Of a stretch of DNA of 33,331 nt, positions 3,201-32,300 are shown one piece after another. This DNA comes from a virus. Position 1 is the stretch's first letter. The number at the start of each line of letters is the position of its first letter. Location of the stretch: positions 1 through 33,331 of IMG/VR virus record IMGVR_UViG_3300021197_001839; one strand, written 5' to 3'. The translations under genes and the position numbers were made by a program. The notes under the pieces are model-generated. The model was not told where the DNA came from. It saw only the letters and a list, made by a program, of their open reading frames with translations, and made no database searches.

Positions 3201-3707
3201 ATGATCAAGCCAGCAGGTCAGGCATTACGATGGCTCTTTAGTCGTCCAAATATGATTAAAGGGAAACCTGATGAATTAATGAAAGCTGGTGAGATTGCAT
3301 TTAGGTTAATGCCTGATACGATTGCTGCTGGAATAAATGTAGCAACAACTCAAGGTGATGTAGTTGATAAAGGACTTGCTGGTGCAGCTGATATTGTTTT
3401 AGGTGCTGGATCTGGATTACTTGCAGGTCGAATGGGTGGTAGGAATAGAGTTGTATCAGATATGTTGGATTTAAGTGCAAGTATGGGTGGAGGAATGGCA
3501 GCATATCCAGTTGGTGATGCACTTATTCGAATGAAAGATAAAGCAACAGGTGGTTTGGGGCAAACAGGTTATGAGAAGATGAGTTATCAACAACAGAAAG
3601 CATTAGAACAACAGATTACTGAGCAAGTAATGAATGCATATGGATACCTGCCTGGTACAAGGGAAATGTATCTTAACCCTCAAATGGATGATAGAGGAAT
3701 GGCATAA
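3201..3707 (+). CDS. Glycine-rich hydrophobic virion-type protein (168 aa)
   Basis: The ATG at 3201 follows an AGGACAGGAG stretch (3178-3187) that could serve as ribosome binding site, with long spacing. A TAAACTAG sequence at 3166 may be a weak promoter box. Residues about 35-110 alternate Gly/Ala with Leu/Ile/Val, including GLAGAADIVLGAGSGLLAG and a second Gly/Ala stretch (SASMGGGMAAYPVGDALI). This looks like glycine-zipper helices able to enter a membrane. The C-terminal third is Gln-rich and soluble (QQQKALEQQITEQVMN). Family unknown. A role in forming a channel during DNA injection is inference from composition and from similar segments in neighbouring proteins. Confidence 0.58.
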   Translation: MIKPAGQALRWLFSRPNMIKGKPDELMKAGEIAFRLMPDTIAAGINVATTQGDVVDKGLAGAADIVLGAGSGLLAGRMGGRNRVVSDMLDLSASMGGGMAAYPVGDALIRMKDKATGGLGQTGYEKMSYQQQKALEQQITEQVMNAYGYLPGTREMYLNPQMDDRGMA

Positions 3708-4960
3708 TGGTAACTGAGAACAGGCGGAATCAAATTGGAAAAATACTTGCAGGAATTAATCCGTTTGATCAACAAGTGCGAGAAGATTTTGTCAAAGGAT
3801 TAAAGGATGACTATTCAATTGGTAGAGAAGATTCTACCAAGATGTATTACAGACAAAGAGACCTAGAAGGATCAACACCAGAATCCACCAGAGCAGCAAA
3901 TATGCTAAATACTCATACTGGATTGATCAGGGCAAAAGAAGCAGCTGGAATGATGTCTGGTCCTGCTCTACAAGCGTTAAATGAAAGTGACATGGCCTTA
4001 CGTGGGTCACAGGCACACAAAGCAGGACAAATGGTAGGAACAGGTCTAAATGATCTTACACAGGATAGAAGCCGAAGTATTTACTGGTTATTAAATGCGT
4101 TACAGGCAACGGGTGAAGTGATTAATGAAGCAACCCTTGCCAAGTTCGCCCCAAGCTTATATCAACGAAGCACTGTCAATCATCCCACACTTCAGAGGAG
4201 AAATGATGCTGGTGTCAAAGAACCAATGCCTATGTCATTTAAGAATGCTGCTCATCGAGAGTTAATGCTTCGAAAAGGAATGGCTAAGCAGGTTGATGAC
4301 AAAGTAGTTCCTGCTCGTGGCTACAGTTCAAATAATCAAAACGAATTACAAAGACAAAACTATTCACCAGGGATGGTTCAATCCTTAGCTATACCAACTG
4401 GAATTGCAATCAACTCAGGATTGGGATTATTGACACCCTTTGGAGGAGCGGAAGGATATAAAGCTGCTTTACCATCAGAAGATGATCCAACCAAAACCTC
4501 AAACGTAATCGGTGAAGTTGGAATGAAGTACATACTGGGAAGAACAGGACAACTCTTACCTTATAACGAGTTTGTCAAAGTCAGACCAGATGTAAGCCGA
4601 GATGAGTATGAAAGGTATCAGGCATTTAAATATGACAAACGTGAAGACTATAACCCTGCCGATGGTGACATAACGATTGGCGGTGGAGCACTTAAAGCAA
4701 CTGATGAAGGCATTCATGGACCAGAAATACAGTTCCTAGGTAGAAGTCTTCCAGTAACAACTGGTATTGTTCCATATGCATCAGCATTAGCTGGAGGTGT
4801 TATTGGAGCAAGACGTGGAGTAAGAAACAACAAGGCTGCTGGATATGGTTTAATAGGAGGTATGGCAGGTTTAGCTACAGGTCAAGTAACAGGTCATGTG
4901 ATTGAAGCTGAACGGCGACGTCGCAACATTAACGAAAATCTTCAGCAGGGGACGCTATGA
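3707..4960 (+). CDS. Putative internal virion/ejection protein with C-terminal Gly-zipper (417 aa)
   Basis: The start overlaps the preceding stop (TAATG). Most of the protein is soluble and charged. Residues about 225-245 (AIPTGIAINSGLGLLTPFGG) and about 350-400 are hydrophobic and Gly/Ala-rich; the latter contains GVIGARRGVRNNKAAGYGL and GGMAGLATGQVTGHVI, followed by EAERRRR. The layout of a late Gly-rich hydrophobic stretch followed by a basic tail resembles the C-terminus of the 792-residue protein encoded at 510-2888. No enzyme motif is visible. I infer a virion protein that inserts into the host envelope on infection. The ATG of the next gene lies inside its last codons (4957-4960, ATGA). 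Confidence 0.58.
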   Translation: MVTENRRNQIGKILAGINPFDQQVREDFVKGLKDDYSIGREDSTKMYYRQRDLEGSTPESTRAANMLNTHTGLIRAKEAAGMMSGPALQALNESDMALRGSQAHKAGQMVGTGLNDLTQDRSRSIYWLLNALQATGEVINEATLAKFAPSLYQRSTVNHPTLQRRNDAGVKEPMPMSFKNAAHRELMLRKGMAKQVDDKVVPARGYSSNNQNELQRQNYSPGMVQSLAIPTGIAINSGLGLLTPFGGAEGYKAALPSEDDPTKTSNVIGEVGMKYILGRTGQLLPYNEFVKVRPDVSRDEYERYQAFKYDKREDYNPADGDITIGGGALKATDEGIHGPEIQFLGRSLPVTTGIVPYASALAGGVIGARRGVRNNKAAGYGLIGGMAGLATGQVTGHVIEAERRRRNINENLQQGTL

Positions 4961-5394
4961 CTTTTAATCCGTCAGATTATATAAGAGACAGAGGCTTTGG
5001 TGATATTTCAGCAGCTGCTGTGGATCCAAGAGTAGAAAATGCAATTTTATATGGCAATGCGAATTTATTAAAAGCAGCTGATATGGCAGATTTCTTAAGG
5101 GACTCGGCTAAATTAACTGGTTCGGCAATGAGAGAGTCTGCACAGCGAATGGCAGGTGCAAATATGTTTGATGGAGCGTCGGAAGGTCTAAGTCGTTTAG
5201 CAATGGGTGCTTCTTCTTCCTTTGGAGGAAAAACTGAATTTAGTCAACCAGTCCCTGGGAACCCTGGTGCAAGAGAAACTATTGGAGGATATGGAGGCAA
5301 TGAATACTTTACTCCAAGCGAAGTACCTGGATTCACTACGCCAGACTTTAGCCTAAACACGCCAAGAGATGTTGTTAAATATCCGTATAAATAG
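4957..5394 (+). CDS. Hypothetical virion-module protein (145 aa)
   Basis: The gene starts on the ATGA overlap with the preceding gene, so it is probably translationally coupled. The first 80 residues look helical (ENAILYGNANLLKAADMADF and following). The C-terminal half is Gly/Pro/Ser/Phe-rich and probably unstructured, ending TPRDVVKYPYK. No family is recognised. It is the last gene of the tight 510-5394 run, before a small promoter-bearing gap. Confidence 0.55.
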   Translation: MTFNPSDYIRDRGFGDISAAAVDPRVENAILYGNANLLKAADMADFLRDSAKLTGSAMRESAQRMAGANMFDGASEGLSRLAMGASSSFGGKTEFSQPVPGNPGARETIGGYGGNEYFTPSEVPGFTTPDFSLNTPRDVVKYPYK

Positions 5395-5441: not shown

Positions 5442-6146
5442 ATGGCTAGAAGTTTCTCAAGTTATGGATCAGGGTTTAGTCCCAAAAGTGGTCTTGTTGG
5501 GCGATTTACGATGCCCCAATTTAGTGGTTCAGGATCAAGAGCCGGTAATGCTGCTGGTATTGTTAATCTTGGATCAACTTATGGTGCACTAAGAAGAAGT
5601 AAAACTAAGTACTCAAGTATTAGTGCAAATGCAATTGCTTCACGTGCCTCACAACGAGCAACTGCTATATCAGCTAGAGCAAGTGTTGATGCATCAAAGG
5701 CAGTTAATAAGGGTAGATTAAAGGCAGCAAAGATTCAAGCAAGCGCACAAAAATCTGCAGCAAAATCTAAAGCACGGGGATCTATGTGGGGATCTGCGTT
5801 TAAAGCTATTGGTACAATCGGCGGATTAGCTTTAATGGCATCAGACGAATCAATTAAAGATAATATTCAAACCATTGATGATGCACTCACAAAGCTACGT
5901 GCATTAAAACCAGTTACCTTTAACTACAAGGAAGAGTGGTCAACTAATCCAGAGATATTACACCACGGATTCATTGCTCAGGACTATATGAAAGTAATGC
6001 CTGATGCAACCTATTATGATGAGAGTAGTGGAAAATACTGTATTGACACTAGTGAATTAATCGGACTACTTGTGCGTGCGATTCAACAGCTTGAGGTTAA
6101 GGTCACAAGCCTCGAAGTAAAACATGCATTAGCAGGAGTTAAGTGA
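5442..6146 (+). CDS. Small virion protein with C-terminal S74 self-cleaving chaperone domain (234 aa)
   Basis: Residues about 133-234 match the peptidase S74 / intramolecular chaperone family: SDESIKDNI, then LKPVTFNYK, GFIAQDYMKVMPDA, DTSELIGLLVRAIQQLEVKV. In this family the Ser and the Lys five residues later form the self-cleaving dyad; here they are Ser134 and Lys139. Such domains normally trimerise fibres and tailspikes and then cut themselves off. The N-terminal part is unusual: about 110 residues of Ala/Ser/Lys/Arg-rich helix followed by a hydrophobic stretch, GSAFKAIGTIGGLALMA, that ends exactly at the predicted cut. Cleavage would release a basic peptide with a hydrophobic tail. No receptor-binding domain is seen. 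The call of the domain is firm; the role of the released part is inference. Confidence 0.85.
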   Translation: MARSFSSYGSGFSPKSGLVGRFTMPQFSGSGSRAGNAAGIVNLGSTYGALRRSKTKYSSISANAIASRASQRATAISARASVDASKAVNKGRLKAAKIQASAQKSAAKSKARGSMWGSAFKAIGTIGGLALMASDESIKDNIQTIDDALTKLRALKPVTFNYKEEWSTNPEILHHGFIAQDYMKVMPDATYYDESSGKYCIDTSELIGLLVRAIQQLEVKVTSLEVKHALAGVK

Positions 6147-6769
6147 TGATTTACGGGACTAGCGGTAATGCTTTATTTGGAAAGGAAGATGAGCTTCGAA
6201 GAATCTTAGAACTTGCCAAAAGAGAACAATTAAATCCAGACATTTCATTTAGAGCTAACCCAGCAAACTATCGAAATGATCCTCGGGGAAGTGTTCTGGG
6301 AGATGCAGCACTCACGGCAGCAGAATTAGGTGGAACAGCACACGGTAAGTATTTAAATTCTGTAGACAATATGTACCGGAGCCTGGGTTCGGCATATCCT
6401 GAAATGGCTACTAAAGCTAGTAATGCACAGAAAGCAATTGCTGGGTTAAAAGTAGGTGGCCGGACAGGCGCTCGATTAGCTGGCATGGCATCAAAAGCAT
6501 TACCAATTATGGGAACAGTAGCCGGCGTAACAGGAGCTGCTGATATTCTTATGGGTAAAGATAGTGCAGCAAATAAGGTTATGGACACAGCAGCAATGAT
6601 AGGAGGAGCTACCTTATGTTCTCCAGGCGGCCCATTAGCAATGACTGCATGTGCGGGCATAGCTAAATCACTAAGTGATGGGACTCAGTGGTTATTTGGT
6701 GATAAGAAGTCTCCAGAAGAACGTAGAATGGAAGAAGCATTAATTGCATTACGTGGAGGTCAAATCTGA
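6146..6769 (+). CDS. Glycine-rich hydrophobic virion-type protein (207 aa)
   Basis: The ATG at 6146 overlaps the previous stop (TGATG) and follows AGGAG (6133-6137) by 8 bases, so I prefer it to the GTG at 6143. The N-terminal 60 residues are charged. From about residue 95 the protein is Gly/Ala-rich and hydrophobic (GARLAGMASKALPIMGTVAG, then AAMIGGATLCSPGGPLAMTA), with two Cys in the second stretch. The last 35 residues are charged. Family unknown. Composition and position resemble other Gly-zipper proteins in this module, which I interpret as envelope-inserting internal virion proteins. Confidence 0.58.
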   Translation: MIYGTSGNALFGKEDELRRILELAKREQLNPDISFRANPANYRNDPRGSVLGDAALTAAELGGTAHGKYLNSVDNMYRSLGSAYPEMATKASNAQKAIAGLKVGGRTGARLAGMASKALPIMGTVAGVTGAADILMGKDSAANKVMDTAAMIGGATLCSPGGPLAMTACAGIAKSLSDGTQWLFGDKKSPEERRMEEALIALRGGQI

Positions 6770-7476
6770 TGGCAATATTTGGATGGGTTCCTGGGATGGG
6801 TGTTGAAGATGCTGCTAACAGGGAAATCTTAGCAGGGCAATTAAAGGATGATGGTACAGGAATTAAGGAAGGTAAATATAATTGGCAGGATAAATTTGGT
6901 GGATTGCTAGGAGGCTACGATCGAGAAGCAGTTGAGGCTACTGCTCAACGATTAAGAGATGAAGCTTTAAGTAAAAAATTGAATAGAGAGTATGCAATTA
7001 CTGGTACAAACTTAAAAGGACTAGGGCTAAATCCTGAGTACATAGGTAATGTTACTGGTATTGAAGAGCAGAAATTAAGTAATCAAATTAATTCAGATAT
7101 CGAGCGATTAACTGCCGCAGAAGGATACTATAATACGAAAAATGCAAAGGGGGGATCATTAGATCCGGATGCGTCAGCAAGCCAAATAACATCAGCAGCA
7201 TCCACTTTAAGAGATGCAAATGTAATAGCAAAGGAAAAAAAGATTCAACGAGAGGTTGAACGACAAGAAGGTAGATCGGATGATTTACTTACAATGCAGA
7301 TGTTACAAAATCAAGCTGAAAATGATAGAGCTTATAACTTTCAAATGAACCAAATGAATTATAATAATCGAGCTTTAGATCTTAAAGAGGCACGTTTAGA
7401 TCGTAGAGATCGTCAAGCTGCTATTGCTCAGTTAATGGCCGGATTAAGTCAACTAGGAACTTCAATTGCTGCTTAA
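6769..7476 (+). CDS. Coiled-coil virion-module protein (235 aa)
   Basis: The start overlaps the previous stop (TGATG). The first half is soluble with several Gly. The second half (about residues 150-225) is strongly helical, rich in Gln, Asn, Arg and Asp, with a hydrophobic residue roughly every third or fourth position (for example AYNFQMNQMNYNNRALDL and KEARLDRRDRQAAIAQL). This is similar in flavour to the Gln-rich rod protein encoded at 8487-9953. No known family. Its stop TAA overlaps the stop of the convergent hydrolase gene by four bases (TTAA), with no terminator between them. Confidence 0.57.
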   Translation: MAIFGWVPGMGVEDAANREILAGQLKDDGTGIKEGKYNWQDKFGGLLGGYDREAVEATAQRLRDEALSKKLNREYAITGTNLKGLGLNPEYIGNVTGIEEQKLSNQINSDIERLTAAEGYYNTKNAKGGSLDPDASASQITSAASTLRDANVIAKEKKIQREVERQEGRSDDLLTMQMLQNQAENDRAYNFQMNQMNYNNRALDLKEARLDRRDRQAAIAQLMAGLSQLGTSIAA

Positions 7477-8414
7477 ACTTGCCAGGAATAATGAAAGAAG
7501 TTGCCTTTAGGGTCAAACATAGGATCCATCATTCCATCCTTATTACCCTTATTTGAACGATGTTCTAATTGAGTTTGACCCTTAAAGTCGGTACGTCCAT
7601 CTAAAATAGTTAAGGCATTCATAATTTCCTTTTGACCGGTTGGGGATTGAAGATCAGATGATATATTTTGATCATAATTAGAAAGTCCTTTATAGACACC
7701 TTCATACTGCCCTGGTTGGTTAATAACCTCGGAAACTGTATTGGGGAAATCAGGAGAATTAACTCGATTAATAATTGATGCAGCAACAGCATATCTATCA
7801 AGTCCAGGTCCAGCTTCAGATGAAATTGCGTAAGATAATTCATCAAAATCTTTAGGTGTAAATTTAGATAATTCCACGGGTTGGATAGTTGCAGTTGAAT
7901 CCAATGAAGTATTTCCTGGTAAGTCTTCTGCACCTGGAGGTGTGCCTTGTCTACCAGATTTAATCCAGTCTATACGAGCTTCATTTTTAGCTTTAGATTC
8001 ACTATATTGACGCTGGATATCAGACAACTGCTCAGTACGTAAATTACGTAATTCAAGTCTCTCAACTCTATCTGCATCATTCATTTTCTTCGTCATATAT
8101 GCAGAGGACATAAGACCTAATCCCCCAACAACCCCCGCCATTCGTTTAGAAGGCCTAAGAATATCGCTTACTTGTTCTTTTGTCTTTGCTTGCCTCTTAT
8201 TAAGAGCTAAAGACGTGTCAACAGCATCCTTCGTCTTTTCCCCTAGTGCCTTTGCATTAGTAACTGCATTACGTTTTTTTGCTCTTGCTTGAATTGCTGC
8301 ATTAGATACAGCAGTTGTATTAAAAGAATAATCACGAGATGCTTTGAAAACAGCATTCATATTATTAACAACTGCACGGGCAGATGTTGAATAGTCTCCA
8401 ATAGGAAATACCAT
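7473..8414 (-). CDS. SleB-like cell wall hydrolase, virion-associated (313 aa)
   Basis: The C-terminal part (about residues 188-313) resembles the SleB / Hydrolase_2 cell-wall hydrolases: DELSYAISSEAG, then YAVAASIINRVNSPDFPNTV and EVINQPGQYEGV, ending FFHYSW. Glu200 in SSEAG matches the conserved catalytic Glu of this family. Such enzymes cut peptidoglycan glycan strands. The N-terminal 90 residues are a basic helix, followed by a short hydrophobic stretch MAGVVGGLGLMSSAYM (92-107). That layout, and the GGLxLMxS motif, recall the N-terminal part of the S74 protein at 5442-6146. I infer a virion-carried wall-degrading enzyme used at entry; a lysis role is the alternative. It is the only minus-strand gene in the left half and has its own promoter box. 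Confidence 0.75.
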   Translation of the reverse strand: MVFPIGDYSTSARAVVNNMNAVFKASRDYSFNTTAVSNAAIQARAKKRNAVTNAKALGEKTKDAVDTSLALNKRQAKTKEQVSDILRPSKRMAGVVGGLGLMSSAYMTKKMNDADRVERLELRNLRTEQLSDIQRQYSESKAKNEARIDWIKSGRQGTPPGAEDLPGNTSLDSTATIQPVELSKFTPKDFDELSYAISSEAGPGLDRYAVAASIINRVNSPDFPNTVSEVINQPGQYEGVYKGLSNYDQNISSDLQSPTGQKEIMNALTILDGRTDFKGQTQLEHRSNKGNKDGMMDPMFDPKGNFFHYSWQV

Positions 8415-8486: not shown

Positions 8487-9953
8487 ATGGCTGCAGATCC
8501 TGGGAATTACGAATTCATGCAGATGATGAATGGTTTTATGGCGTTGGATCCTACAGAAACGGATAGTGAAGGTAGATCATACAAGTTAGGCACTGCTGCA
8601 GATATGGTAAGTGCTGCTTTTGATGCCGATCTTGCAAAATCGATGGGCGCGGAACAGGCTGTAATATCTAAAGATTTGATGCAAGAGCAGGCAACATTAG
8701 AGCGTGAATCCGGGAATATCTCAAGGCAAGATGAGTTTGACAAAAGCCTATCAATGCTGGGTGCACAGCAAGAACTACAAAATACCTCTGCTAACCAACA
8801 ACATACACGTGACTTAGGAATGTTGAGTGCAACAGGTCAACAGGATCGAATGAATATAGCTAAACAGGGGAATCAGAATAGACTTCAAAGTATTACCGAT
8901 GGTGAACAGTCAAGATTAAATATCGGAGCCCAAGGTCAACAAACTAGATTAAATATTGGCGCCGAAGGTCAACAAACTAGAATGAATATTGGCGCCCAAG
9001 GCCTACAAGACCGATTATTAGTAAATGCTCAAGGTACTCAAGAAAGGGCTAATATCAAGACTCAACAATCAGCACAAGGAGCTAGAGAAAGGGCTAACAT
9101 TGGAGCCGAAGGCTTACAAAACCGATTATTAGTAAATGCTCAAGGTACTCAAGATAGAGCTAGTATCAATACTCAACAATCAGCACAAGGAGCTAGAGAA
9201 AGGGGTAACATTGGAGCCGAAGGCTTACAAAACCGATTATTAGTAAATGCTCAAGGTACTCAAGATAGAGCTAATATTAGAGCTCAGGGTGATCAGGATG
9301 TAAGAAAGATTGGAGATCAAGGTACACAAGATCGCTTAAGTATGACTCAGCAAGCGACAGAAGATTTACGCAGGATCAAATCACAAGGTGAAGTTGACAG
9401 TGGATTAATTGATGATCAAGGTAATGTTGATGTCACCAAAATTGAATCGCAGGGTAGTGTTGATGTAACTAAAATTCAAGAACAAGAGACTCAACAAGCT
9501 GTACGTGAAAAAGCAAATATTGATGCTCAAGGTTATCAAGAAAGACAAAATATTGCACAACAAGAAAAATATCAAGCGGCACGTGAGCTCGCTAACATTG
9601 CACAACAAGGCACAAATACCACGGATGCTATTGAAGAACAAGAAACGTTACAAGCAGATCGAGAGAAACAAAATATTGAATCACAAGGTTCTGTAGATGT
9701 TGCAAATATCCAAGCTCAAGGTACTGCAGATACCGGACGCATAACAACACAAGGAAGTGAGGATCGCTCTACAATTGGTACACAAGGGACAGAAACAAGA
9801 AAAACATTATCTGATCAAGCATCAGAAGATAGAACAACTATTGGTGCACAAGGAGATGATACTCGCAAGACAATGGATAAAGAGTTTGAAATTTTATCTG
9901 CCAAAAAGAAAGCGGATGCACATTCAGCTGCAGCGTTGCGACAAGCCTTCTAA
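8487..9953 (+). CDS. Hendecad-repeat coiled-coil rod protein (488 aa)
   Basis: Residues about 115-462 are a near-continuous run of 11-residue units of the form (A/S/T)-Q-G-x-x-(D/E/T)-R-x-x-I, for example GAQGQQTRLNI and TQGSEDRSTIG. An 11-residue period is typical of right-handed or straight coiled coils. If it were one continuous helix at 0.15 nm per residue it would be roughly 50 nm long. Within it, three successive copies of a 37-residue unit (11+11+15) are nearly identical at DNA level, with a 111-base period (see repeat entry). The N-terminus is soluble and Met/Asp-rich; the C-terminus is a short charged helix. It is probably a structural rod in the virion core, tail or ejection apparatus; family not named. 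Its TAA overlaps the next ATG (TAATG). Confidence 0.62.
   Translation: MAADPGNYEFMQMMNGFMALDPTETDSEGRSYKLGTAADMVSAAFDADLAKSMGAEQAVISKDLMQEQATLERESGNISRQDEFDKSLSMLGAQQELQNTSANQQHTRDLGMLSATGQQDRMNIAKQGNQNRLQSITDGEQSRLNIGAQGQQTRLNIGAEGQQTRMNIGAQGLQDRLLVNAQGTQERANIKTQQSAQGARERANIGAEGLQNRLLVNAQGTQDRASINTQQSAQGARERGNIGAEGLQNRLLVNAQGTQDRANIRAQGDQDVRKIGDQGTQDRLSMTQQATEDLRRIKSQGEVDSGLIDDQGNVDVTKIESQGSVDVTKIQEQETQQAVREKANIDAQGYQERQNIAQQEKYQAARELANIAQQGTNTTDAIEEQETLQADREKQNIESQGSVDVANIQAQGTADTGRITTQGSEDRSTIGTQGTETRKTLSDQASEDRTTIGAQGDDTRKTMDKEFEILSAKKKADAHSAAALRQAF
8995..9284 (+). repeat. 111-bp in-frame tandem repeat inside the rod gene
   Basis: The sequence CCGATTATTAGTAAATGCTC recurs at 9011, 9122 and 9233, exactly 111 bases apart, within nearly identical surrounding sequence. 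The period is 37 codons, so copy-number change keeps the frame. The first copy differs at scattered bases (GACC against AACC, for example), and the third is cut short where ordinary 11-residue units resume. Confidence 0.85.
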
Positions 9954-10489
9954 TGAACACTCACATTAAAACAGGAAAAGTTTATCTAACTGTTGTTGAT
10001 CAATGGCTAGATAAACTGCCAGCATCAGAAGCAGAAGACTTCAGAGAATTTGCTGAGGTAACTCCTTCTGTAATTGAAATTTGGGTATATGCCGGAATCA
10101 TCGGCTATACAGGATCATTCAACGATCTAAGTCGTTGGATCAAGATGAAATTCAAAAAACTAAATCGCCGTGAAATCCTTAATAGTGAAATTGCTGCTCT
10201 ACACTCCGATATACAAGAACTGCGAATGGCAGTTACCTCCGGTGAAATCAAGGGTTCAGATGGTGCTGCTCGGTTGGCAGCGCTTGAAAAGGAGCTTAGG
10301 TCTCATATTGAAACCTCAGAAAGAATGAACCGCACAACAGATAAACGAGGTTTGATCATGGCAGGTGCTGATCGTGTAATGCGTGAGATGACAGCAATCT
10401 TTAAAGATGATCCACAGTTCGCTGAACCAATTGATAATGCAATGAATGCTGTTTGGGCCAAAATTTATAGTGAGTTAACGTCAAGCTAA
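9953..10489 (+). CDS. Possible terminase small subunit (178 aa)
   Basis: The start overlaps the preceding stop (TAATG) and the stop overlaps the next start (TAATG). Residues 1-70 look like a compact helical domain (WLDKLPASEAEDFREFAEVT, followed by SFNDLSRWIKMKFKKLN) that could be a DNA-binding helical bundle. Residues about 75-115 form a coiled coil (REILNSEIAALHSDIQEL). The C-terminal part is helical. An N-terminal DNA-binding domain, a central coiled coil and a place one gene before the large terminase fit small terminases, but no signature settles it. The alternative is another virion-module protein. Confidence 0.5.
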   Translation: MNTHIKTGKVYLTVVDQWLDKLPASEAEDFREFAEVTPSVIEIWVYAGIIGYTGSFNDLSRWIKMKFKKLNRREILNSEIAALHSDIQELRMAVTSGEIKGSDGAARLAALEKELRSHIETSERMNRTTDKRGLIMAGADRVMREMTAIFKDDPQFAEPIDNAMNAVWAKIYSELTSS

Positions 10490-10850: not shown

Positions 10851-12389
10851 ATGGCAGTATCAAGTATTGCACTAGCTTATAGACGATCTGCATTAATGAC
10901 AGCAACGAAAGTTACTGTCAAACCTCCAAGTGAAGAAGTTCTAAAAGCGAGAGACAATTTCCAAGACTTCTGTAAAGCAATGGGGAAACCCCCTGCAAAG
11001 CATATGCTGGAGTGGCATACAGAGCTTTGTACAGGGGAAGATTCTGAATGTCTGTTAGGGGTTGCTGGACCAAATACATCGATATTGGCTCCACGTGGTT
11101 CTGCTAAAAGTACAGTCCTTGGTTTATTTGCAGCCTGGATGATTGGACGACATGCAGCTGCCAAGCAGATGTTACGTATACTATATATTGCTTATATGGT
11201 AGATATTAGTCGAGCCAAGTCAGCAACAATCAAAGGAATATTAACAAGCAAAATATATCGAGAGATTTTTCCAATGGTAAGACTCTCAAAAATTAAACGT
11301 TCAGATGAATATTGGTCAATTGATTATGAATTTGCAGGAATTGATACAGCAGGTGAAGAAGCTTTCACAGTTGCGTGTGGTGGTCTCAAAGGTGCAATCA
11401 CCTCTAAACGATCACAGTTGGTGCTTATTGATGACCCTATCAAATCTGCCGCTTCAATTAACAACCCAGACATTCGCCGTGAGATGGAGCAAACGTGGTC
11501 TAACGTTATCGCACCAACGATGTTCCAAGGTGCACGGGCTATCTGTTTGGGAACCCGCTTTCACTTCAACGATATACACGCCACATTATTTCTGCCCAAA
11601 AATAATTGGAAGCAGATAGTTCAAAAAGCTGTTATCACCGATGCTGAAGGGAGGCAACGTTCTTATTGGCCAGAGTTTTGGTCAATGAAATACTTAAATG
11701 AGCGTAAACTAGAGGATCGAGTTGCCTTCGCTTATCAATACTTAAATACTGCAGTCAAGTCAACTGATGTTGGAATCTCACCAGAGTTAATCATTAAAGG
11801 TGAAATACCTGAAGATTACGATTGCCTAGGTGTAGGAATAGATTTGAGTGCGGGATTACGTGAGAAAAACGATTGGACCGTAATGACACTCGGCGGAATT
11901 AAAGAAGGGAAGATCTATTTGATTGATCAGAAAAGAGCACGCACATTAGGTAATCTTGAAAAGATGGATGCATTGTGTGAGATGTTAGCCGATTGGAATA
12001 TCCTGCTTGAAAATGATGAAGGTCAATATTTCCCAACAATGTCACCATGCATCATTTGGCCTGAAGCGGTTGCATATCAGAACTCGTTTGAGGGAGACTT
12101 CAAAAGAGTAATGCATCAGAACCGAGCGTTATACAACCTAACTGTTTCACCAGTAAAGGGATTTAAAGGAGATAAGTTAGCAAGACTACGGGGTGTACTT
12201 GGTTTGTATGAACACAAAAAGGTTATATGGAATAAATGGCGTAAATGGAATGTACTAGAAGATGAGCTTTTAAATTTTGGTCATTCAACACATGATGATG
12301 CTGTAGACAGCATGGTATTAACAATGGGTGGATTATTAAAAAGAGGTCGCTTGCAAATTGACTACAATAGTGACAGCTTTGATTTATAA
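10851..12389 (+). CDS. terL: Terminase large subunit
   Basis: This is the ATP-driven DNA packaging motor and headful or end-cutting nuclease. The N-terminal ATPase shows Walker A APRGSAKST (residues 80-88), Walker B LVLIDDP (190-196) and a coupling-type motif CLGTRFHFND (232-241). The C-terminal RNase H-like nuclease has GIDLS (Asp331), WPEAVAY (Glu405) and HDDAVDS (Asp482/483) as likely metal ligands. At 512 residues it is complete. The style (PRGxxKST, LxTRFHxxD) recalls T7-group and other short-tailed phage terminases more than T4 gp17. The ATG at 10851 has only a weak purine-rich leader; a later ATG at 10896 is possible. The 3' end hides a TACAATAG promoter box for the next gene. Confidence 0.95.
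   Translation: MAVSSIALAYRRSALMTATKVTVKPPSEEVLKARDNFQDFCKAMGKPPAKHMLEWHTELCTGEDSECLLGVAGPNTSILAPRGSAKSTVLGLFAAWMIGRHAAAKQMLRILYIAYMVDISRAKSATIKGILTSKIYREIFPMVRLSKIKRSDEYWSIDYEFAGIDTAGEEAFTVACGGLKGAITSKRSQLVLIDDPIKSAASINNPDIRREMEQTWSNVIAPTMFQGARAICLGTRFHFNDIHATLFLPKNNWKQIVQKAVITDAEGRQRSYWPEFWSMKYLNERKLEDRVAFAYQYLNTAVKSTDVGISPELIIKGEIPEDYDCLGVGIDLSAGLREKNDWTVMTLGGIKEGKIYLIDQKRARTLGNLEKMDALCEMLADWNILLENDEGQYFPTMSPCIIWPEAVAYQNSFEGDFKRVMHQNRALYNLTVSPVKGFKGDKLARLRGVLGLYEHKKVIWNKWRKWNVLEDELLNFGHSTHDDAVDSMVLTMGGLLKRGRLQIDYNSDSFDL
12363..12370 (+). promoter_or_regulatory. Late-type promoter box inside the end of terL
   Basis: TACAATAG encodes part of DYNS in the last codons of the terminase and begins 35 bases before the ATG at 12398. 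It is an exact copy of the phage box, placed within a coding region because the gap is only a few bases. Confidence 0.42.
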
Positions 12390-14163: not shown

Positions 14164-16422
14164 ATGGACAATAGCAGTATTCAAGGGCAATTTTCACAGA
14201 TACTTACAGCTGCTAAACAACGTCGTGGAGATTTATCAGTAGACTCAATGATTGTCTCGTCTCATCTTGCACAGATGAGGACATTCATGTTGCGCCGTGG
14301 AGTTGAATTTTACGCAAAGCAAGATTCATTCGGTACTCGTAAAGAATTCATCAGTAAGGTTGTAGAAGACAACATGCTGGAAATGAAACTAGAAAGTATT
14401 GTTGATTACTTCTTATGTGATGGACAAGGGTTATTTTATTTCAGACCAACAGGAGATAACTACCAATTACTATTTTTCCCCAAAGATAGTTACCGTGCAT
14501 ATCGAGGGCAGAGTGGTGAACTAGAATCAGTTGTATTGATCTATTCATTTAATATTCAACGATCAAATGTGCTCAATAGCTATCCATCACAGAATGGAAG
14601 AGGTGGAACCAAAAAATGGATTCAACTAAAAGTTTTTAAAGACAAGATTGAACAGACGATATCAGATGAAAAGATCGAATTTGATAACAATATGAATGGT
14701 GGTTTAATGCCATTCAAAATGCCAGGATCAACTGAAACGCTAGTAAACACTCTAGGTTATATTCCAGCAGTAGAAGTATTCAATCATATGGATTGTACTG
14801 GTGAATCTACTGGTAATGGAGAATTTGACTGGTTGGCAAATCAAATTCTTTATCATGATGAACTTGTAAGAAATATTCGTAAGAACTTAAAGTTCTTTGG
14901 TAATCCCACATTGGTATCTAGTCGTCCCAAGCATGACATCGTAGAAAGTGGGGATGAAAGTACCTTCCGCCCTACCATTAGTTCTCAAGCAGGATTTGCA
15001 CCAATAGCAGGATTAGGTGGAAGCACTAGAACAAGTCAGCCATTTGGTACTAGTGGTATTGATGGACAGATCAAAGTACCAAGAGTTATTGCTAATTTAG
15101 AGCCGACTGATCGTGTTCAGTATATGACACCTGACTCAGTATCAGGTGATCAAAATTTATACGTGAAGCAGTACCGATCTGAAATACGCCTAGCCCTCGG
15201 AGGAGTTGATGATATTGACATTACTACAGCACAAACTGCTTATGAGATTAAAACACTTTATGGACGTGTAGCTGCAACAGCAGAGAAGAAAGCAAGAGCA
15301 TTATTTACCTACGGGTTATGTCGTCTATTCTCAATGATGATCTATACAGAGGAAGAATTATTTAAAAAGTCATTTGCAGCAGCAGAAGGATTAACTGAAC
15401 CTCCAATTCCACTACAAGAAGACTTTCAAGATGTAAATGAATTTGAAATTGCAAGTGCAGATTATCAAGAAGCAATCGCTATATTTACCAAAACTAGGGA
15501 CGAATTAATGCGTGTTAAACTAGATTCAGGAGAAATCCCTGCTGGAGTCACAGGATTAATCCCCGATGGCAGCTCAAGTGTTGACTGGCGTTGGATGGGA
15601 GAAGTATTTGAAGAAAGTACAGACGATATTCTAAACAACAGTATTGTCGTTCGAAATCTTCAAGAATTAGGTGTTGATTCAATTGAAGCACTTAAATATT
15701 TATTCCCAGCAAAAACCGATGAAGAAAGAGCCGCCATGTTAAGTGGTTATCCTTTCAGAATGGTTCAGCAGACTCAACAAAGTATTAACAGTTTTATTGG
15801 ATTACTTGGTAATCTATATCAATTGCCACATCCACAGATGCCAGATAAACCATTGGCAGCTGACCCGAATCTTGATCTAACAGGGTTCCTTTATCGATCT
15901 TTAGAATTCTTACGTAAGGAGTTAAGTTACAGTGGAAGTTACAAACCAGACAGCGCCGGTCCAACCCCAACAGAGCTCAGCGCCGCAGACCAGTTACGCG
16001 CCGCAAGGGGTACCCCAGTACGCGACGAACCAGAGCTCAGCATCCCAGGCATCAATGGCACAGCCGGTGATTCCTCAAATGCCGACTTACCAGGCACCGG
16101 CCCAGGCAGCGCAGGCTTCGGCTCCGGCGGGGAATCCATGGCAGCAGGCGTTCCAGGCACTCAGCGCAAGTTTGAATACAAGCAGCCCCTCCCAGGCCCA
16201 GGTTTCACCCTCCGCATACCAGACAACTCCAACACCGCAGGCCCAAACGCAACCCAATTGGGCTTCAACGGTTCCTTCGGCAGCCCCGACTTACAGTCCC
16301 CAAGTTTCAACCCAGGGTTACTCGGAATCGGAAGTGAGCCAGCTGGTTCAGCAGGCAGCTCAACAAGGAGCAGCACAGGCGAGCGACGGGTACCTAAACG
16401 GAGTAAGCGACGCAAGTCTTGA
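14164..16422 (+). CDS. Portal protein, with long C-terminal extension over the scaffold gene
   Basis: The call rests on position after the terminase and before a scaffold-like gene and capsid genes, on length, and on portal-like character. Residues 1-590 are a mixed helical and beta protein with long helices near 375-410 (TAYEIKTLYGRVAATAEKKA) and an acidic wing. Portals form the twelve-subunit ring through which DNA enters. From about residue 590 the sequence turns into a disordered Gly/Pro/Ser-rich tail ending in a basic cluster (RRVPKRSKRRKS). This tail is encoded by the same DNA that encodes the N-terminus of the next gene in the +1 frame. The tail may be functional, or just an unchecked readthrough of a frame kept open by base composition. 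Confidence 0.75.
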   Translation: MDNSSIQGQFSQILTAAKQRRGDLSVDSMIVSSHLAQMRTFMLRRGVEFYAKQDSFGTRKEFISKVVEDNMLEMKLESIVDYFLCDGQGLFYFRPTGDNYQLLFFPKDSYRAYRGQSGELESVVLIYSFNIQRSNVLNSYPSQNGRGGTKKWIQLKVFKDKIEQTISDEKIEFDNNMNGGLMPFKMPGSTETLVNTLGYIPAVEVFNHMDCTGESTGNGEFDWLANQILYHDELVRNIRKNLKFFGNPTLVSSRPKHDIVESGDESTFRPTISSQAGFAPIAGLGGSTRTSQPFGTSGIDGQIKVPRVIANLEPTDRVQYMTPDSVSGDQNLYVKQYRSEIRLALGGVDDIDITTAQTAYEIKTLYGRVAATAEKKARALFTYGLCRLFSMMIYTEEELFKKSFAAAEGLTEPPIPLQEDFQDVNEFEIASADYQEAIAIFTKTRDELMRVKLDSGEIPAGVTGLIPDGSSSVDWRWMGEVFEESTDDILNNSIVVRNLQELGVDSIEALKYLFPAKTDEERAAMLSGYPFRMVQQTQQSINSFIGLLGNLYQLPHPQMPDKPLAADPNLDLTGFLYRSLEFLRKELSYSGSYKPDSAGPTPTELSAADQLRAARGTPVRDEPELSIPGINGTAGDSSNADLPGTGPGSAGFGSGGESMAAGVPGTQRKFEYKQPLPGPGFTLRIPDNSNTAGPNATQLGFNGSFGSPDLQSPSFNPGLLGIGSEPAGSAGSSTRSSTGERRVPKRSKRRKS

Positions 16423-16918
16423 AGTTCTTGAGCACTTCGGTGCTGAAGCACCTGCCCTTCTCAATACATATGCTTGTGCCGTAGAAGATGCACTAATTGA
16501 GCAAGTCCAGCGTGGTAATTCCATGACTCATATGCTTGAAGCAGCATCAGAAGAGCGTGGTGCGATGAACATCATGTTGACCAATCCTGACGTTCTTGCT
16601 GATTACGTTAATGAGTTCTTTGGTCCTACAGGTCCATACCCAACAGAGACTGCTGAAGAGACACAAGTCCGTCAGCAACATGAAGCCCGTGCTCAATTCG
16701 AAGCTGAAATCGAAGCCCAAGAGCAAGGTCGTGTTCCTCAGCAATTCCAACGTCCACAGATGGAAATGCCTACACCAGGTCGTCAGGCAAGCGCTGTAAA
16801 TGATTTCTGGGGCAGCTTTAGTGAAATGATGGATTCATCTCCTGAAAACGCTTGGAAGTATCTCTCCCAAGCTCCTCAGGGTGCATTGCAGGCTAAGGCT
16901 TTAGTTCAAGACCTCTGA
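15932..16918 (+). CDS. Scaffold / capsid assembly protein (328 aa)
   Basis: The GTG start at 15932 follows AAGGAG (15916-15921) by 10 bases, inside the portal gene. Residues 1-130 are Ala/Pro/Gln/Ser-rich and disordered. Residues 130-235 are helical (SEVSQLVQQAAQQGAAQA, LEVLEHFGAEAPALLNTY). The acidic, Gln/Glu-rich region near 235-265 could be a coiled coil. The end (about 285-328) is compact. An acidic, helical, Gln-rich protein between portal and capsid genes is typical of internal scaffolds that guide procapsid assembly. The first 491 bases overlap the portal gene out of frame. If the overlap start were wrong, an ATG in this frame (about residue 43, MAQPVIPQ) would be the next candidate. 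Confidence 0.72.
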   Translation: MEVTNQTAPVQPQQSSAPQTSYAPQGVPQYATNQSSASQASMAQPVIPQMPTYQAPAQAAQASAPAGNPWQQAFQALSASLNTSSPSQAQVSPSAYQTTPTPQAQTQPNWASTVPSAAPTYSPQVSTQGYSESEVSQLVQQAAQQGAAQASDGYLNGVSDASLEVLEHFGAEAPALLNTYACAVEDALIEQVQRGNSMTHMLEAASEERGAMNIMLTNPDVLADYVNEFFGPTGPYPTETAEETQVRQQHEARAQFEAEIEAQEQGRVPQQFQRPQMEMPTPGRQASAVNDFWGSFSEMMDSSPENAWKYLSQAPQGALQAKALVQDL

Positions 16919-17869: not shown

Positions 17870-18811
17870 ATGCAAAAAAATAAAGTTTCAGGTGATTCAG
17901 TAAGGTCATATTTACGTGATATCGGAAGAATCCCTCTGCTTGAACATGATGAGGAAATTCTATTAGGCCGAAAAGTTCAACGCCTAATGGAAATTAAAGC
18001 AGTAGAGGTATTACTGAATAATCCATCAAGTGAAGAGTTAGCTCAATCACTTGATATCTCACTAAAGGAACTTAAACGTGAACTTCGAGCAGGTGAAAAA
18101 GCGAAAGATCAGATGGTTACGGCTAACCTTCGTCTCGTGGTTTCAGTTGCCAAAAAATATACCAAACGAAACATGGAACTACTGGATATCATCCAAGAAG
18201 GCACCATTGGCTTGGTCCGTGGTGTGGAAAAGTTTGACCCTGGTCGTGGTTACAAGTTTTCTACTTACGCCTACTGGTGGATCCGTCAAGGGATCACTCG
18301 CGCGATCGCTGAAAAGTCGAGGGCGATCCGCTTACCAATCCATGTTACTGAGAACCTCAACAAACTTAAGAAAGCCCAGCGTGAATTAAGTCAAATCAAC
18401 GGTGAAATCCCAAATGTATTTCAGTTAGCAGAACATCTATCTTTTACGATTGATGAGATTAAGGATTTAATGTGCAAAGCACGTCAACCAACATCTTTAG
18501 AAATTAAAATAGGTGAGAACAGAGATACTGCTTTAATCGATCTGCTTGAGGATGAGGACCAATTACCAGACAGACTTCTTGAACAACAATTCATCAAAGA
18601 AGATATTAGAGAGTTAATTAATGACCTTCCAGAAATGCAAGCAGCAGTAGTAAGTATGAGATATGGGATTGGCAATGAAATGCTTGAGCCAATGTCAATG
18701 ACAGCTATTGGTCAAGTATTGAACATGAGTAGAGATCGTGTGCGAACGTTAGAGAATAAAGCTCTTAAAACACTTCGCTCTCAATCCAGTTCAATTAACG
18801 AATATTTGTAA
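17870..18811 (+). CDS. RNA polymerase sigma factor, cyanobacterial group 2 type
   Basis: This directs RNA polymerase to promoters. Region 1.2 (residues 9-40, DSVRSYLRDIGRIPLL), region 2 (about 80-158, with LLDIIQEGTIGL and KFSTYAYWWIRQGITRAIA), region 3 (158-235) and region 4 (245-305) are all present. There is no long region 1.1 or non-conserved insert, as in group 2 sigma factors. The -10-reading Gln140 and Thr143 (E. coli Gln437 and Thr440) are kept. In the -35 helix, SRDRVRTLENKAL replaces the usual S/T-RERVRQIE-KAL: Asp289 for Glu585 and Thr293 for Gln589. The middle of the gene is more GC-rich and contains a HIP1 octamer, pointing to a cyanobacterial donor. It has its own classical promoter and lies within the late genes. 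Confidence 0.93.
   Translation: MQKNKVSGDSVRSYLRDIGRIPLLEHDEEILLGRKVQRLMEIKAVEVLLNNPSSEELAQSLDISLKELKRELRAGEKAKDQMVTANLRLVVSVAKKYTKRNMELLDIIQEGTIGLVRGVEKFDPGRGYKFSTYAYWWIRQGITRAIAEKSRAIRLPIHVTENLNKLKKAQRELSQINGEIPNVFQLAEHLSFTIDEIKDLMCKARQPTSLEIKIGENRDTALIDLLEDEDQLPDRLLEQQFIKEDIRELINDLPEMQAAVVSMRYGIGNEMLEPMSMTAIGQVLNMSRDRVRTLENKALKTLRSQSSSINEYL
18302..18309. other. HIP1 octamer GCGATCGC
   Basis: The palindrome GCGATCGC is highly over-represented in many cyanobacterial genomes (HIP1). I saw one copy in this window, inside the most conserved part (region 2.4) of the sigma gene. Confidence 0.75.
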
Positions 18812-27608: not shown

Positions 27609-28724
27609 TTGAAGATTCAACTAAAACGTAGTAATGTCCTAGAAGGTAGTGTTGCAAAACAACCTTCATCTGACCAAATGGAGTATGGTGAAGTAGCAAT
27701 TAATTATAGTCAGACAGATCCTGCAATTTTTTTAAAAAATTCGAACAACGACATTATTAGAATCGCTGGAGCAGGTCCTAAAATTGGTGATCTGACTGGC
27801 AATGTTACAGGTAATGTAACTGGTGCTTTAACTGGCAATGCAGATACAGCTACAAAATTAGCAACTGGTAGAACAATTGCTATTTCAGGTGATGCTACAT
27901 ATACCTCAGCTGCATTTGATGGTTCAAGTAATGTAACTGGTGCACTAACACTAGCAAACAGTGGCGTGACTGCCAATAATTATGGAAGTAGTACAGCAAT
28001 CCCAGTTGTAACAGTAGATGCAAAAGGTAGAGTTACGGCAGCAACTACAGCAGCAATTAACACATCATTTACTTTAAGTGATGGTACAAACACTCAAACT
28101 ATTAATGGTGGAGACACTTTAACAGTGACAGGTGGAAGTAACCTTACTTCAGTAGTAGGAGCAAATGACACAGTAACATTAAACTTAGATAGCACATTAA
28201 CTGGCTTAACAAGCATTACTTCAACAAACTTTGTTGGTAATCTTACTGGTGATGTTACTGGAAGTATTGATCTAGATTCAGATCTAGATATGAAAACATT
28301 TTCCATAATTACATCGCAAAGCAATAGGGACGTTAATTTAAATCCTCATGGATCAGGTGTAGTAGTAATCAAAGGTAATGCAACTAGAGGTTCAGGACAA
28401 TTAGCTTTAAACTGTGAAAATAATAGTCACGGTGTTAAAATCAAGGGACCAGCACATTCAGCTGGAGCGACATATACATTAACTCTGCCGACTGCTCTAC
28501 CGACCGTGACAGGTCAATCACTTGTTAGTGATACAAGTGGAGTTCTATCATTTAGCACTATTGATACTGGTAATCCAGGCTTTCTGGAAACACCAGCACT
28601 TCTGTCAACAAATACAACCATATCTGCAAACGTCAATGCAGGTGGAATGGGAACAATGGCTATTGCATCTGGAATAGTTTTTACAGTTCCGTCAACATCA
28701 ACTTATACAGTAATCAAAGGTTAA
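27609..28724 (+). CDS. Tail fibre protein (371 aa)
   Basis: The TTG start at 27609 follows GGAGGT (27597-27602) at good spacing. The N-terminus (IQLKRSNVLEGSVAKQPSSD, then MEYGEVAINYSQTDPAIFLK) is a widely shared fibre start in phages of aquatic bacteria and probably attaches to the tail. It is followed by repeats rich in Thr/Gly/Asn (GDLTGNVTGNVTGALTGNAD) and by VDAKGRVTAAT, a motif frequent in fibres. The rest is beta-structured, ending STSTYTVIKG. It probably forms a trimer stalk. Receptor specificity may lie in downstream proteins, which follow within four bases or overlap. Confidence 0.8.
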   Translation: MKIQLKRSNVLEGSVAKQPSSDQMEYGEVAINYSQTDPAIFLKNSNNDIIRIAGAGPKIGDLTGNVTGNVTGALTGNADTATKLATGRTIAISGDATYTSAAFDGSSNVTGALTLANSGVTANNYGSSTAIPVVTVDAKGRVTAATTAAINTSFTLSDGTNTQTINGGDTLTVTGGSNLTSVVGANDTVTLNLDSTLTGLTSITSTNFVGNLTGDVTGSIDLDSDLDMKTFSIITSQSNRDVNLNPHGSGVVVIKGNATRGSGQLALNCENNSHGVKIKGPAHSAGATYTLTLPTALPTVTGQSLVSDTSGVLSFSTIDTGNPGFLETPALLSTNTTISANVNAGGMGTMAIASGIVFTVPSTSTYTVIKG

Positions 28725-28728
28725 TTCA

Positions 28729-29307
28729 ATGGCTTACGGAAAAATTAAATCAGATGTTATTATCTACGACAATAGTGGAAGTGATGTTGAAATTGCAGTT
28801 AGTGGTATTCCTTCAGCTACAGATGTAGCAGCAAAAGCACCACTTGCTAGCCCTGCATTTACTGGTATTCCCACTGCACCAACTGCAACAAGTGGGACAA
28901 ATACAACGCAATTAGCAACGACAGCGTTTGTTCAATCTGCATCTGGTGGAAGTGGAAGTGTTAGTTCAGTTAATACTTGGACCGCAGGCCAACGTGCAGA
29001 AATAACAACTGTAACCGATGCTACTAGTCTCGATATTAACTTAGATGATAGTAATAATTTCCAAATTACGCTCGGTGGTAATCGTACATTAAACGCTCCT
29101 ACAAACCAAGTAGCAGGGCAAAGTGGATCTATATTTATTATTCAAGATAGTACAGGTAGCAGAACATTAACCTATAACACAGCGTGGGATTTTGCAGGAG
29201 GAGCTGCGCCTGTATTAACAACAGCAGCAGGATCATGTGATCGTATTGATTACATCGTTAAGGCTTCTGGTGATATCCATGCAGTATTTACTGGTAATTA
29301 TTCATGA
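28729..29307 (+). CDS. Short tail fibre / fibre-tip protein (192 aa)
   Basis: The gene begins four bases after the previous stop. The block PLASPAFTGIPTAPTATSG followed by NTTQLATTAFVQS is a signature repeat of many phage tail fibres. The C-terminal half (DINLDDSNNFQITLGGNRTL and following) resembles the beta-structured tip region seen in marine phage fibres. No chaperone domain is present. It probably assembles with the 371-residue fibre. Its end overlaps the next gene's ATG (ATGA at 29304-29307). Confidence 0.75.
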   Translation: MAYGKIKSDVIIYDNSGSDVEIAVSGIPSATDVAAKAPLASPAFTGIPTAPTATSGTNTTQLATTAFVQSASGGSGSVSSVNTWTAGQRAEITTVTDATSLDINLDDSNNFQITLGGNRTLNAPTNQVAGQSGSIFIIQDSTGSRTLTYNTAWDFAGGAAPVLTTAAGSCDRIDYIVKASGDIHAVFTGNYS

Positions 29308-32300
29308 GCTTTGTAGGAAGCAATATACTCGCTGGTGCCTCAGGACAAGGAGGTGGTGGCCACGAGATTGAACGTAGTCTTAGGTTTAACTCGGGAGACT
29401 CAGCTTCACTTTCAAAAGTTTTTGGAGTTGGCAATAGAAAAACTTGGACTTTATCCCTCTGGATTAAGCGTAGTAGTATTGGATCTAATCAGACAATTTG
29501 GGCTGCAGATGATTTAAGTACCATTAGATTTAGTGGTGGAAATATGATTGAATGGCTTGTTGCTGGTAACTACGGCCTCTTAACCAGCCAAGTTTTTAGA
29601 GATACCGCTGCTTGGTATCACTTTATGTTTGTTCTTGATACCACTCAAAGTACAACAAATGATAGGATGAAAATCTATATCAATGGTAGTTTGGTTGATT
29701 CTTATGGACAACGTACTAATCCTAGTCAAAACGCTGATTTAGCTTGGAATAATTCATCAACACATTATATTGGTCGAAAGCCTAATAATAGTGTGTATGT
29801 TGACTTAATGCTAGCCGACGTACATTTCATCGATGGTCAAGCATTAGCACCAACAGATTTTGGTGAGACTGATGACAACGGTGTCTGGCAGCCAAAGGAG
29901 TTTGCTGGGACGTATGGAACAAATGGTTTCCACCTCGACTTCAAAGACAACAGTTCATCGGCTGCTCTTGGGTATGATGCTGCTGGTAGCAACAACTGGA
30001 CTGTTAATAACATAAGTGCAATAGCACCTGGTCTCTCGACTGCTAATCAAGGGATGGATGTGGTTACATATACTGGCAATGGTGGAACGCAGTCAATATC
30101 ATCGCTGGCTTTCCAGCCAGATTTTGTCTGGACATCCGTCAGGGACCAAACTGGTTATAACAAGTACTTAGTTGATTCTGTTCGTGGCTCTACTAAGGTT
30201 TTAATTAGCCACAAAGCTGACGCTGAGTCAACTAAGTCTACTGGTATCACTTCATTTAATTCTAATGGTTTCAGCATAGGGAGCGACGGTCAGGTCAATG
30301 AAAGCGGTCGGAGCATGGTTGCATGGTGCTGGAAGGCCGGTGGCGCAGCGTCGTCAAATACCGACGGAAGTGTGACAAGCCAAGTATCTGCAAATAGTAC
30401 TTATGGGTTTAGCATCGTTTCCTATGTTGGCGATGGAGCAAACCCACCGAGCACTTTGGGGCATGGTCTCGGAGCAACGCCTAAAATGATATTTTTCAAA
30501 AATCGTACCGATGCAGACGATTGGATTGTTTATCATTCCGCCATTGGTGCTACTAAAATTCTTGAATTAAATCAAACTGCAGCGGCGTCTACAGAGTCAA
30601 ATCCTTTTAATAATACTGCACCAACAAATAACGTATTTACAGTAGGAGGCGAAAGTCGAAATAACGGTCCAAATGACAATATTATCGCATATTGCTGGGC
30701 TGAAGTTGCTGGATTTTCTAAGTTTGGATCGTACACAGGTAATGGTTCTGCTGATGGTCCTGTAATTACAACAGGATTTAAGCCAAGATGGATAATGGTG
30801 AAAAGTTCAAGCAATGCCAGACACTGGGATATTATGGATTCCGCTAGGAGCCCTACTAACCCTCAAGATAAAACGCTACGTGCTGATTCTAATAATGCAG
30901 AGTTTTCGGATACATCCTCTGGATACGGAATTGTTTGGGAGGTTACAGATAACGGTTTTAAGATTCTTAGAGGTGGTTCTAATCACGATATAAATACAAC
31001 TGGCGAGACCTACATCTACGCAGCATTTGCGGCTAAGCCTGATGAGTCTGGCATTGATTCATTAGTTGACTCACCATCACAAACTGCAACTCCTACAGAC
31101 ACTGGAGCGGGCGGCGAAGTCGTGGGCAATTATGCGACTCTCAACCCATTAAATATTCACTCTGGTTCTGATACGTTTTCAAATGGAAATTTAGAGAATA
31201 CTGTTTCATCGGGTGCCGGAATTAATGAGTCAACTATCGCAATGTCGTCTGGCAAATATTATTTTGAAGTTGTTTTTTCTGGCGGGCAAGGCACTGGTCA
31301 GTTTGCAGGTATTCGTAAACCCGGAAGTCGAAACTACAATGATTCATACCTATACGTTGGCACTGGAAATAAATACATTAATGCTGCCAGCGGCGCAAAC
31401 TACGGAGCAACTCTTTCTAATGGTGATGTAATCGGTACTGCTTTTGATGCAACAAATGGAACGCTAACTTTTTATAAAAACGGAGTAAGTCAAGGAACAG
31501 CTTATACCGGAATTACTGGAACCTATGCTTTTGTTGTTGGTTCGTTTAGTACTGCACCTACATATATTGTCAACTTCGGCCAACGTGCTTTCGCGTATAC
31601 CGCACCAAGCGGCTACAAGGCTTTAAACACCGCAAACTTACCTGAGCCAACAATTGCGGATGGCAGTCAGTATTTTGATACGAAGTTATACACCGGCAAT
31701 GGCTCTACGCAAACAATTAGCGGAATTGGTTTTAGCCCTGATCTTGCATGGCTAAAGTCAAGATCTGAAACTGGCCGTAGTCATTCTCTTTACGACACTG
31801 TTCGCGGAACAACAAAAGTTCTTAAGTCTGACAGCACCGACGCCGAGTCGACGATGTCAGGACTTACAGCATTTAACTCTGACGGGTTTGCTCTAGGATC
31901 TCACGTCAACTCCAACAACAATAATGTCACTTACGTTGGCTGGGCGTGGGACGCCGGATCTTCCACGGTATCTAACACTGACGGCAGCATTGCTTCAAGC
32001 GTAAGAGCCAACCCAAGTGCTGGGTTCTCGATTGTGTCCTACTCAGGAAACTCAACATCTGGAGCAACCGTCGGCCATTCACTCAACAGCAAACCGGAGC
32101 TAATTATTATCAAGGCGACCAACACCGCACAAGGTTGGGCTACATACCACGGATCAGTGGGAGCTAATAAGTATTTACAGTTAAATGCAACTGGAGCTGC
32201 AGCTTCATATAGTGGTTTCATGAATGGTACAGAGCCGACAACCTCTGTATTTAGCCTGGGTAACGACAATTTTGTCAATACTGGTTCTAATTACATCGCC

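Follow-up and report, generated by a model that had tools for sequence, protein, structure and literature searches.

The window, meaning the whole stretch of DNA analysed, is a 33,331-base IMG/VR record. The ORF at 5442-6146 (+) lies within a tightly packed gene run, starts with ATG and is a real gene of 234 amino acids, identified as encoding an S74-capped small virion-like protein by the ORF list, a Pfam S74 match and a 90% identical homologue (L001/L010). The surrounding genes include: 3707-4960 (+), a conserved neighbour used as synteny anchor and tree gene; 6143-6769 (+), a neighbour with Gly/Ala-rich hydrophobic segments, whose synteny is conserved; 9953-10489 (+), another conserved neighbour; 10851-12389 (+), the terminase large subunit (phrog_38, E 2.7e-66); and 14164-16422 (+), a probable portal protein (phrog_20475, head and packaging). 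The single relative of the portal-like protein among 50,697 phage records was Synechococcus phage S-EIV1 (KJ410740), to which the window shows 56% identity in TerL, 46-50% in the portal and 60% in the C-part of the MCP. On these identities, the phage belongs to the S-EIV1-like cyanophage lineage. The genus-level group containing S-EIV1 ranked in the top five for cyanophage abundance in a marine survey (3.3%; PMC5332604). The S74 domain of S-EIV1 itself is carried by a beta-rich 601-aa protein encoded elsewhere in its genome.

Three other features of the window were observed: a sigma-70-type RNA polymerase sigma factor at 17870-18811 (+) (313 aa; phrog_351, E 1.5e-78), which looks full-length and host-like; a 488-aa product of short repeats (e.g. 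NIGAQGQQTR) at 8487-9953 (+), just upstream of the terminase cluster, whose length varies among relatives; and an overlap of about 490 bases, in different frames, between the ORFs at 14164-16422 and 15932-16918 (+), the true start of the second being probably downstream.

The C-terminal part of the protein (residues 134-234, 5841-6143 (+)) is an S74, or intramolecular chaperone, domain. Pfam assigned residues 134-189 to Peptidase_S74 (PF13884; E 1.6e-16, 60.8 bits against a cut-off of 22). The domain opens with an SDESIK motif (5841-5858 (+)) holding the predicted nucleophile Ser134 (codon 5841-5843) and Lys139 (codon 5856-5858); the arrangement S134-D135-E-S-I-K139, with Asp following Ser and an S-x4-K spacing, has the spacing of the dyads known from endoNF (S911/K916) and MyRF (S587/K592) (PMC8326128). 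In an AlphaFold model built on 40 homologues, residues ~141-230 had pLDDT values above 80, mostly above 90, and the only PDB fold matches with E below 1 were ICA/CIMCD structures: 7dc3 (MyRF), which was the closest, 3gud and 3gw6. PDB profile hits for the domain were 8jov and 7dc3. The model ends in a helix (residues 203-231, 6048-6134 (+)) predicted to form a trimer coiled coil, in which I207, L210, I214, L217, V221 and L224 fall at 3-4-3-4 spacing. An internal start at Met132, yielding S74 alone, was considered and rejected: Met132 is not conserved among relatives.

Relatives were gathered by anchoring on the neighbour gene and on the S74 protein, and gene order was conserved among them. The family comprises 45 distinct S74-bearing proteins, typically of 210-241 aa, in which the nucleophile position is Ser in 42, Cys in two and lost in one, and Lys is present in 44. 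In alignment A3, the Asp and Lys are invariant and the Ser is kept in at least 90%, with a family mean column identity of 49%, a pattern that puts the S74 dyad under strong constraint; the initial annotation, which had the domain retaining its Ser134/Lys139 dyad, was right on this point. Comparing the window with its closest relative (L010), dN/dS was 0.032 for the S74 domain and 0.146 for the N-terminal part. Since 45 distinct homologues keep the dyad, with few exceptions, together with a hydrophobic junction before it (described below), the arrangement is not due to chance.

Some members depart from the family pattern. Natural Ser-to-Cys nucleophile variants (CDERTK) occur in L064 (487-1149) and L075 (5722-6435); in L053 (5914-6579, on a contig shared with L266) the SDExxK motif is lost (LLTTKYDVKRI) and the remaining S74 domain is intact, which makes it a natural candidate for an uncleaved family member; and the S74 gene of L021 (7845-8392) appears to be split by frameshifts, through either sequencing error or decay. 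The family gene also occurs on two contigs that were binned into bacterial MAGs (L110 and L111; TMED88, Rhodobiaceae) and that are probably of phage origin.

Whether S74 cuts at all has to be weighed at this point. Cleavage of endoNF uses an Arg supplied by the upstream beta-helix (PMC8326128), and such a beta-helix is absent from the 234-aa protein; this, together with the motif-less L053 and the two Cys members, would fit an S74 that never cuts and remains attached to a helical structural protein, keeping it trimeric or soluble. We consider this unlikely: Ser or Cys is kept in 44/45 proteins, and Lys in as many, in a family whose mean column identity is 49%; sister phages do without S74; and MyRF cleaves without any stalk residue. 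Indeed, MyRF is cleaved independently of the upstream stalk and is trimerised mainly by its C-terminal coiled coil (PMC8326128), so that the stalk-less arrangement in the window protein is plausible.

The part preceding Ser134 can be divided into three segments: a variable Gly/Ser/Asn-rich start (residues 1-56, 5442-5609 (+); alignments A1 and A2), an Ala-rich segment modelled as a single long helix (residues 57-113, 5610-5780 (+)), and a hydrophobic Gly-rich stretch immediately before the predicted cut (residues 114-133, 5781-5840 (+)). Outside the helix, including the variable start, the AlphaFold model of this part is of low confidence. Residues 1-133 gave no Pfam match and contain no beta-rich fibre sequence. 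S74 normally serves trimeric fibres, and a trimeric rod of helices is known from the P22 tail needle; the protein might accordingly be a fibre, needle or spike component, an alpha-helical trimeric rod that owes its folding to S74 as in the classical case. This is very improbable, as the helix lacks heptad periodicity (power ratio of 1.04 at 3.5 residues), the protein is short and devoid of beta-rich repeats, its S74-free homologues (see below) have no trimeriser of any kind, and the phage has separate fibre-like genes at 27609-32660. The isolate S74 matches inspected from the search with the window protein were long fibres or very large proteins; the window protein has no beta-rich part. The partner of S74 is therefore not a fibre, as had been proposed from the sequence at the outset.

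The same first reading described a basic Ala/Ser/Lys/Arg-rich helix, release of which would give a peptide resembling a membrane-active or DNA-binding one. The composition holds for the window, whose N-part is rich in these residues (21 K/R vs 1 D/E) and ends in the uncharged hydrophobic stretch abutting Ser134, but not as a family feature: net charge of the N-part averages +3.3 across the family (range -5 to +20), the window (+20) being the extreme. This lack of conservation weakens the DNA-binding or cationic-peptide reading. Moreover, hydrophobicity showed no period of 3.5-3.6 residues along helix 57-113 (power ratios of 1.04 and 0.76 vs shuffles), and a reading of this segment as an amphipathic or coiled-coil helix was discarded. 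An effector acting in the infected cell, e.g. a membrane-disrupting or nucleoid-binding peptide freed from the precursor, would account for the basic charge and hydrophobic end of the window protein, but the unconserved charge, the absence of amphipathic periodicity, the position of the gene in a terminase/portal-side cluster and the occurrence of the same module in the lysin and in another gene of the cluster render it distinctly improbable. The gene context agrees better with a role in the virion or in ejection than with a free effector.

The hydrophobic stretch at the predicted cut, also noted in the initial annotation, proved to be conserved. Positions ~-18 to -1 before the Ser are nearly uncharged and hydrophobic, with a mean Kyte-Doolittle value of 1.44 (sd 0.21) in 43 members, vs -0.08 (sd 0.55) at 63 other S74 junctions, mostly of fibres and bacterial surface proteins; the sequences are related, and the p-value of this comparison calls for caution.

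S74 is an optional part of the protein in this lineage. A census blind to S74, anchored on the gene at 9953-10489, covered the position in 25 loci: 18/25 have S74 and 7/25 have the N-part alone, as a protein of ~137-160 aa at the same position. Most of the S74-less proteins can be aligned with the N-part as far as the predicted cut, beyond which they run on as a Gly-rich hydrophobic tail (e.g. GAIGTIGGAAIGGPMGAMIGGGIGSSVGGLIG); this fits a mature product without S74. In the neighbour-gene tree, two changes of S74 state are forced by well-supported branches. The modelled structure of the S74-free N-module had a pLDDT of 43.5, too low to be used, and the PHROG matches of the S74-free proteins were weak and mixed.

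The N-module is shared by two other genes of the window: the upstream gene at 4957-5394 (+), whose family matches the N-module profile (hhalign 95.5; HMM matches in relatives, the window copy being placed by synteny); and the lysin at 7473-8414 (-), whose first ~110 aa (8085-8414 (-); hhalign 92.8; direct BLAST E 2e-4) are a third copy of the module, followed by a lytic domain (Pfam Hydrolase_2 at residues 207-274). Control hhalign values were at most 43 for block-shuffled profiles (7-column blocks), at most 16 for column-shuffled profiles and at most 17 for seven other cluster families; both types of shuffle and the unrelated families of the same cluster rule out composition bias as the source of the sharing. 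From phage to phage, one lytic domain takes the place of another (in Pfam: Hydrolase_2, SLT_3, Phage_lysozyme2 and unassigned types); lysin homologues with a constant N-module and swapped lytic domains were found in L010, L017, L023, L042, L045 and L051. Since the partner of this one module can be a self-cutting chaperone, an enzyme or absent altogether, the module may serve to target or package virion proteins. The same sharing could be taken to mean that the module is a membrane anchor of the lysis system, by which the lysin, the S74 protein and the S74-free protein are all held at the host membrane, with S74 cleavage timing the release; the lysin does carry a hydrophobic Gly-rich stretch before its swappable lytic domains. 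This is quite unlikely, given that the hydrophobic stretch of the S74 members is just ~15-18 residues long, that neither a holin nor a spanin family turned up nearby and that the genes lie amid packaging and head-side genes in conserved order.

The search with the window protein had suggested that no isolate has such an architecture, a conclusion overturned by a generic S74 consensus query, which revealed podophages whose S74 lies on small proteins other than fibres. Gp17 of Pseudoalteromonas phage H6/1 is annotated in its record as 'putative ejection protein; pfam13884', and the gene order there is a gp14-like head assembly gene, one gene, the S74 gene and two more ejection proteins; similar genes are present in the Pseudomonas phages PAE2 and AH02, in Mae-JY35 and in Sulfitobacter, Rhizobium and EBPR podovirus genomes. 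The N-parts match phrog_598, 'DNA ejection' (PAE2_13, 5.7e-30; AH02_11, 1.1e-14; H6/1 gp17, 3.7e-16), of which P22 gp7 is a member (2e-95), and other P22-like S74 proteins match phrog_4287, 'DNA ejection protein'. These proteins (H6/1 gp17, PAE2_13, AH02_11; phrog_598/6121/4287) have in common with the window protein a C-terminal S74 with S-D-x-x-x-K on a small Ala/Gly-rich non-fibre partner, a hydrophobic Gly-rich stretch preceding the Ser, and the absence of S74 from relatives such as P22 gp7. They differ in their N-part, which has no detectable homology to the N-module, and in their gene order: none of the families of the gp14-gp7-gp20-gp16 order was recognised around 5442, and no gp20 or gp16 homologue was found near the gene. 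Furthermore, S74 domains in the gp7 position stop shortly behind the Pfam core; they have no counterpart of the predicted coiled-coil helix at the C-terminus of the window protein, and may therefore not trimerise as the window protein would.

P22 gp7, of which there are ~12 copies, is ejected together with the DNA or ahead of it, and is apparently the primary portal binder (PMC4992974). It has no S74, and is, like the S74-free marine proteins, small, Ala/Gly-rich and provided with a Gly-rich hydrophobic C-terminal tail (SAIGGGASGAIAGAGLAKLIGSSTPWGAAIGGGIGLLGSLF); it differs from them in length (229 aa vs 137-160) and in losing its N-terminal 20 residues to the host protease OpdA. Homology of the N-module to gp7 is unsupported (hhalign probability of 6.6% and no phrog_598 match), and the likeness is one of layout. 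S74 is thus, in two families that show no detectable homology, an optional cap behind a hydrophobic stretch. The use of S74 in the window protein is thus non-classical, in line with the contrast to the tailspike role drawn in the initial annotation, but it is not unique, since P22-like podophages have it too.

With moderate confidence, we propose that the product of the gene at 5442-6146 is an internal virion protein, most likely a DNA-ejection protein, made as a self-cutting, S74-capped precursor. In this mechanism, the N-terminal part would be a phage module consisting of an Ala-rich helix and a hydrophobic Gly-rich stretch, and the C-terminal S74 would be a removable intramolecular chaperone that trimerises via its C-terminal coiled coil and shields the aggregation-prone hydrophobic end during synthesis. 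The Ser134/Lys139 dyad would then cut before Ser134, freeing a fragment of ~133 aa that ends in the hydrophobic stretch; the mature product would resemble the S74-free N-module proteins encoded by sister phages, and its layout would be like that of P22 gp7. We infer the cleavage, the trimerisation, the location in the virion and the ejection of the S74-capped protein from these comparisons.

S74 is usually presented as a domain that helps beta-helical tailspikes, and in animals MyRF, to fold. The S74 of endoNF (3gw6), GA-1 gp12 (3gud) and T5 pb1 shares with the window domain the Pfam assignment, the Ser-Lys spacing and the predicted fold, but it follows a triple beta-helix stalk, whereas no such stalk lies upstream of Ser134 in the window protein, where S74 comes after an Ala-rich alpha-helix and a hydrophobic junction. 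The MyRF ICA (7dc3), besides being the closest fold match, is self-cleaving and frees a non-fibre N-terminal fragment; it differs in its beta-helical stalk and in the membrane anchor that follows the ICA, whereas the hydrophobic part of the window protein lies before the cut and would stay on the freed fragment. The T7 core proteins gp14/gp15/gp16, compared by function only, are likewise an internal set that includes both an ejected protein that is small and helical (gp14) and an enzyme with lytic activity (gp16).

In this lineage, the presence of a known domain on an ejection-like helical protein had not been annotated, and the combination is unusual but not unique. More tentatively, S74 might be a cap that recurs on DNA-ejection proteins and can be swapped, taking the place of the second half of the Gly-rich hydrophobic tail in two or more unrelated protein families; it would act as a self-removing safety cap that keeps the membrane-inserting end harmless until assembly and then cuts itself off to arm a membrane-penetrating alpha-helical protein, rather than as a folding aid for beta-fibres. 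We regard this generalisation as possible, although rather doubtful. No paper linking S74 with internal virion or ejection proteins was found in the open-access literature searched, although such papers may exist. If S74 does cap helical ejection proteins as well, it would be a general self-removing chaperone for virion parts that are hard to fold. Because small ejection proteins are hydrophobic and have diverged beyond recognition, an S74 tag beside a Gly-rich hydrophobic end would then offer a sequence handle, which could find ejection proteins in phages with none annotated, e.g. in the widespread S-EIV1-like marine lineage. Existing names are mostly 'tail fiber domain-containing' or 'hypothetical', and are likely misleading. 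In the podophage records L268, L269 and L271-L276, the S74 ejection-like proteins are annotated as 'tail fiber domain-containing', 'chaperone of endosialidase', 'virion structural' or hypothetical, labels that likely hide ejection proteins.
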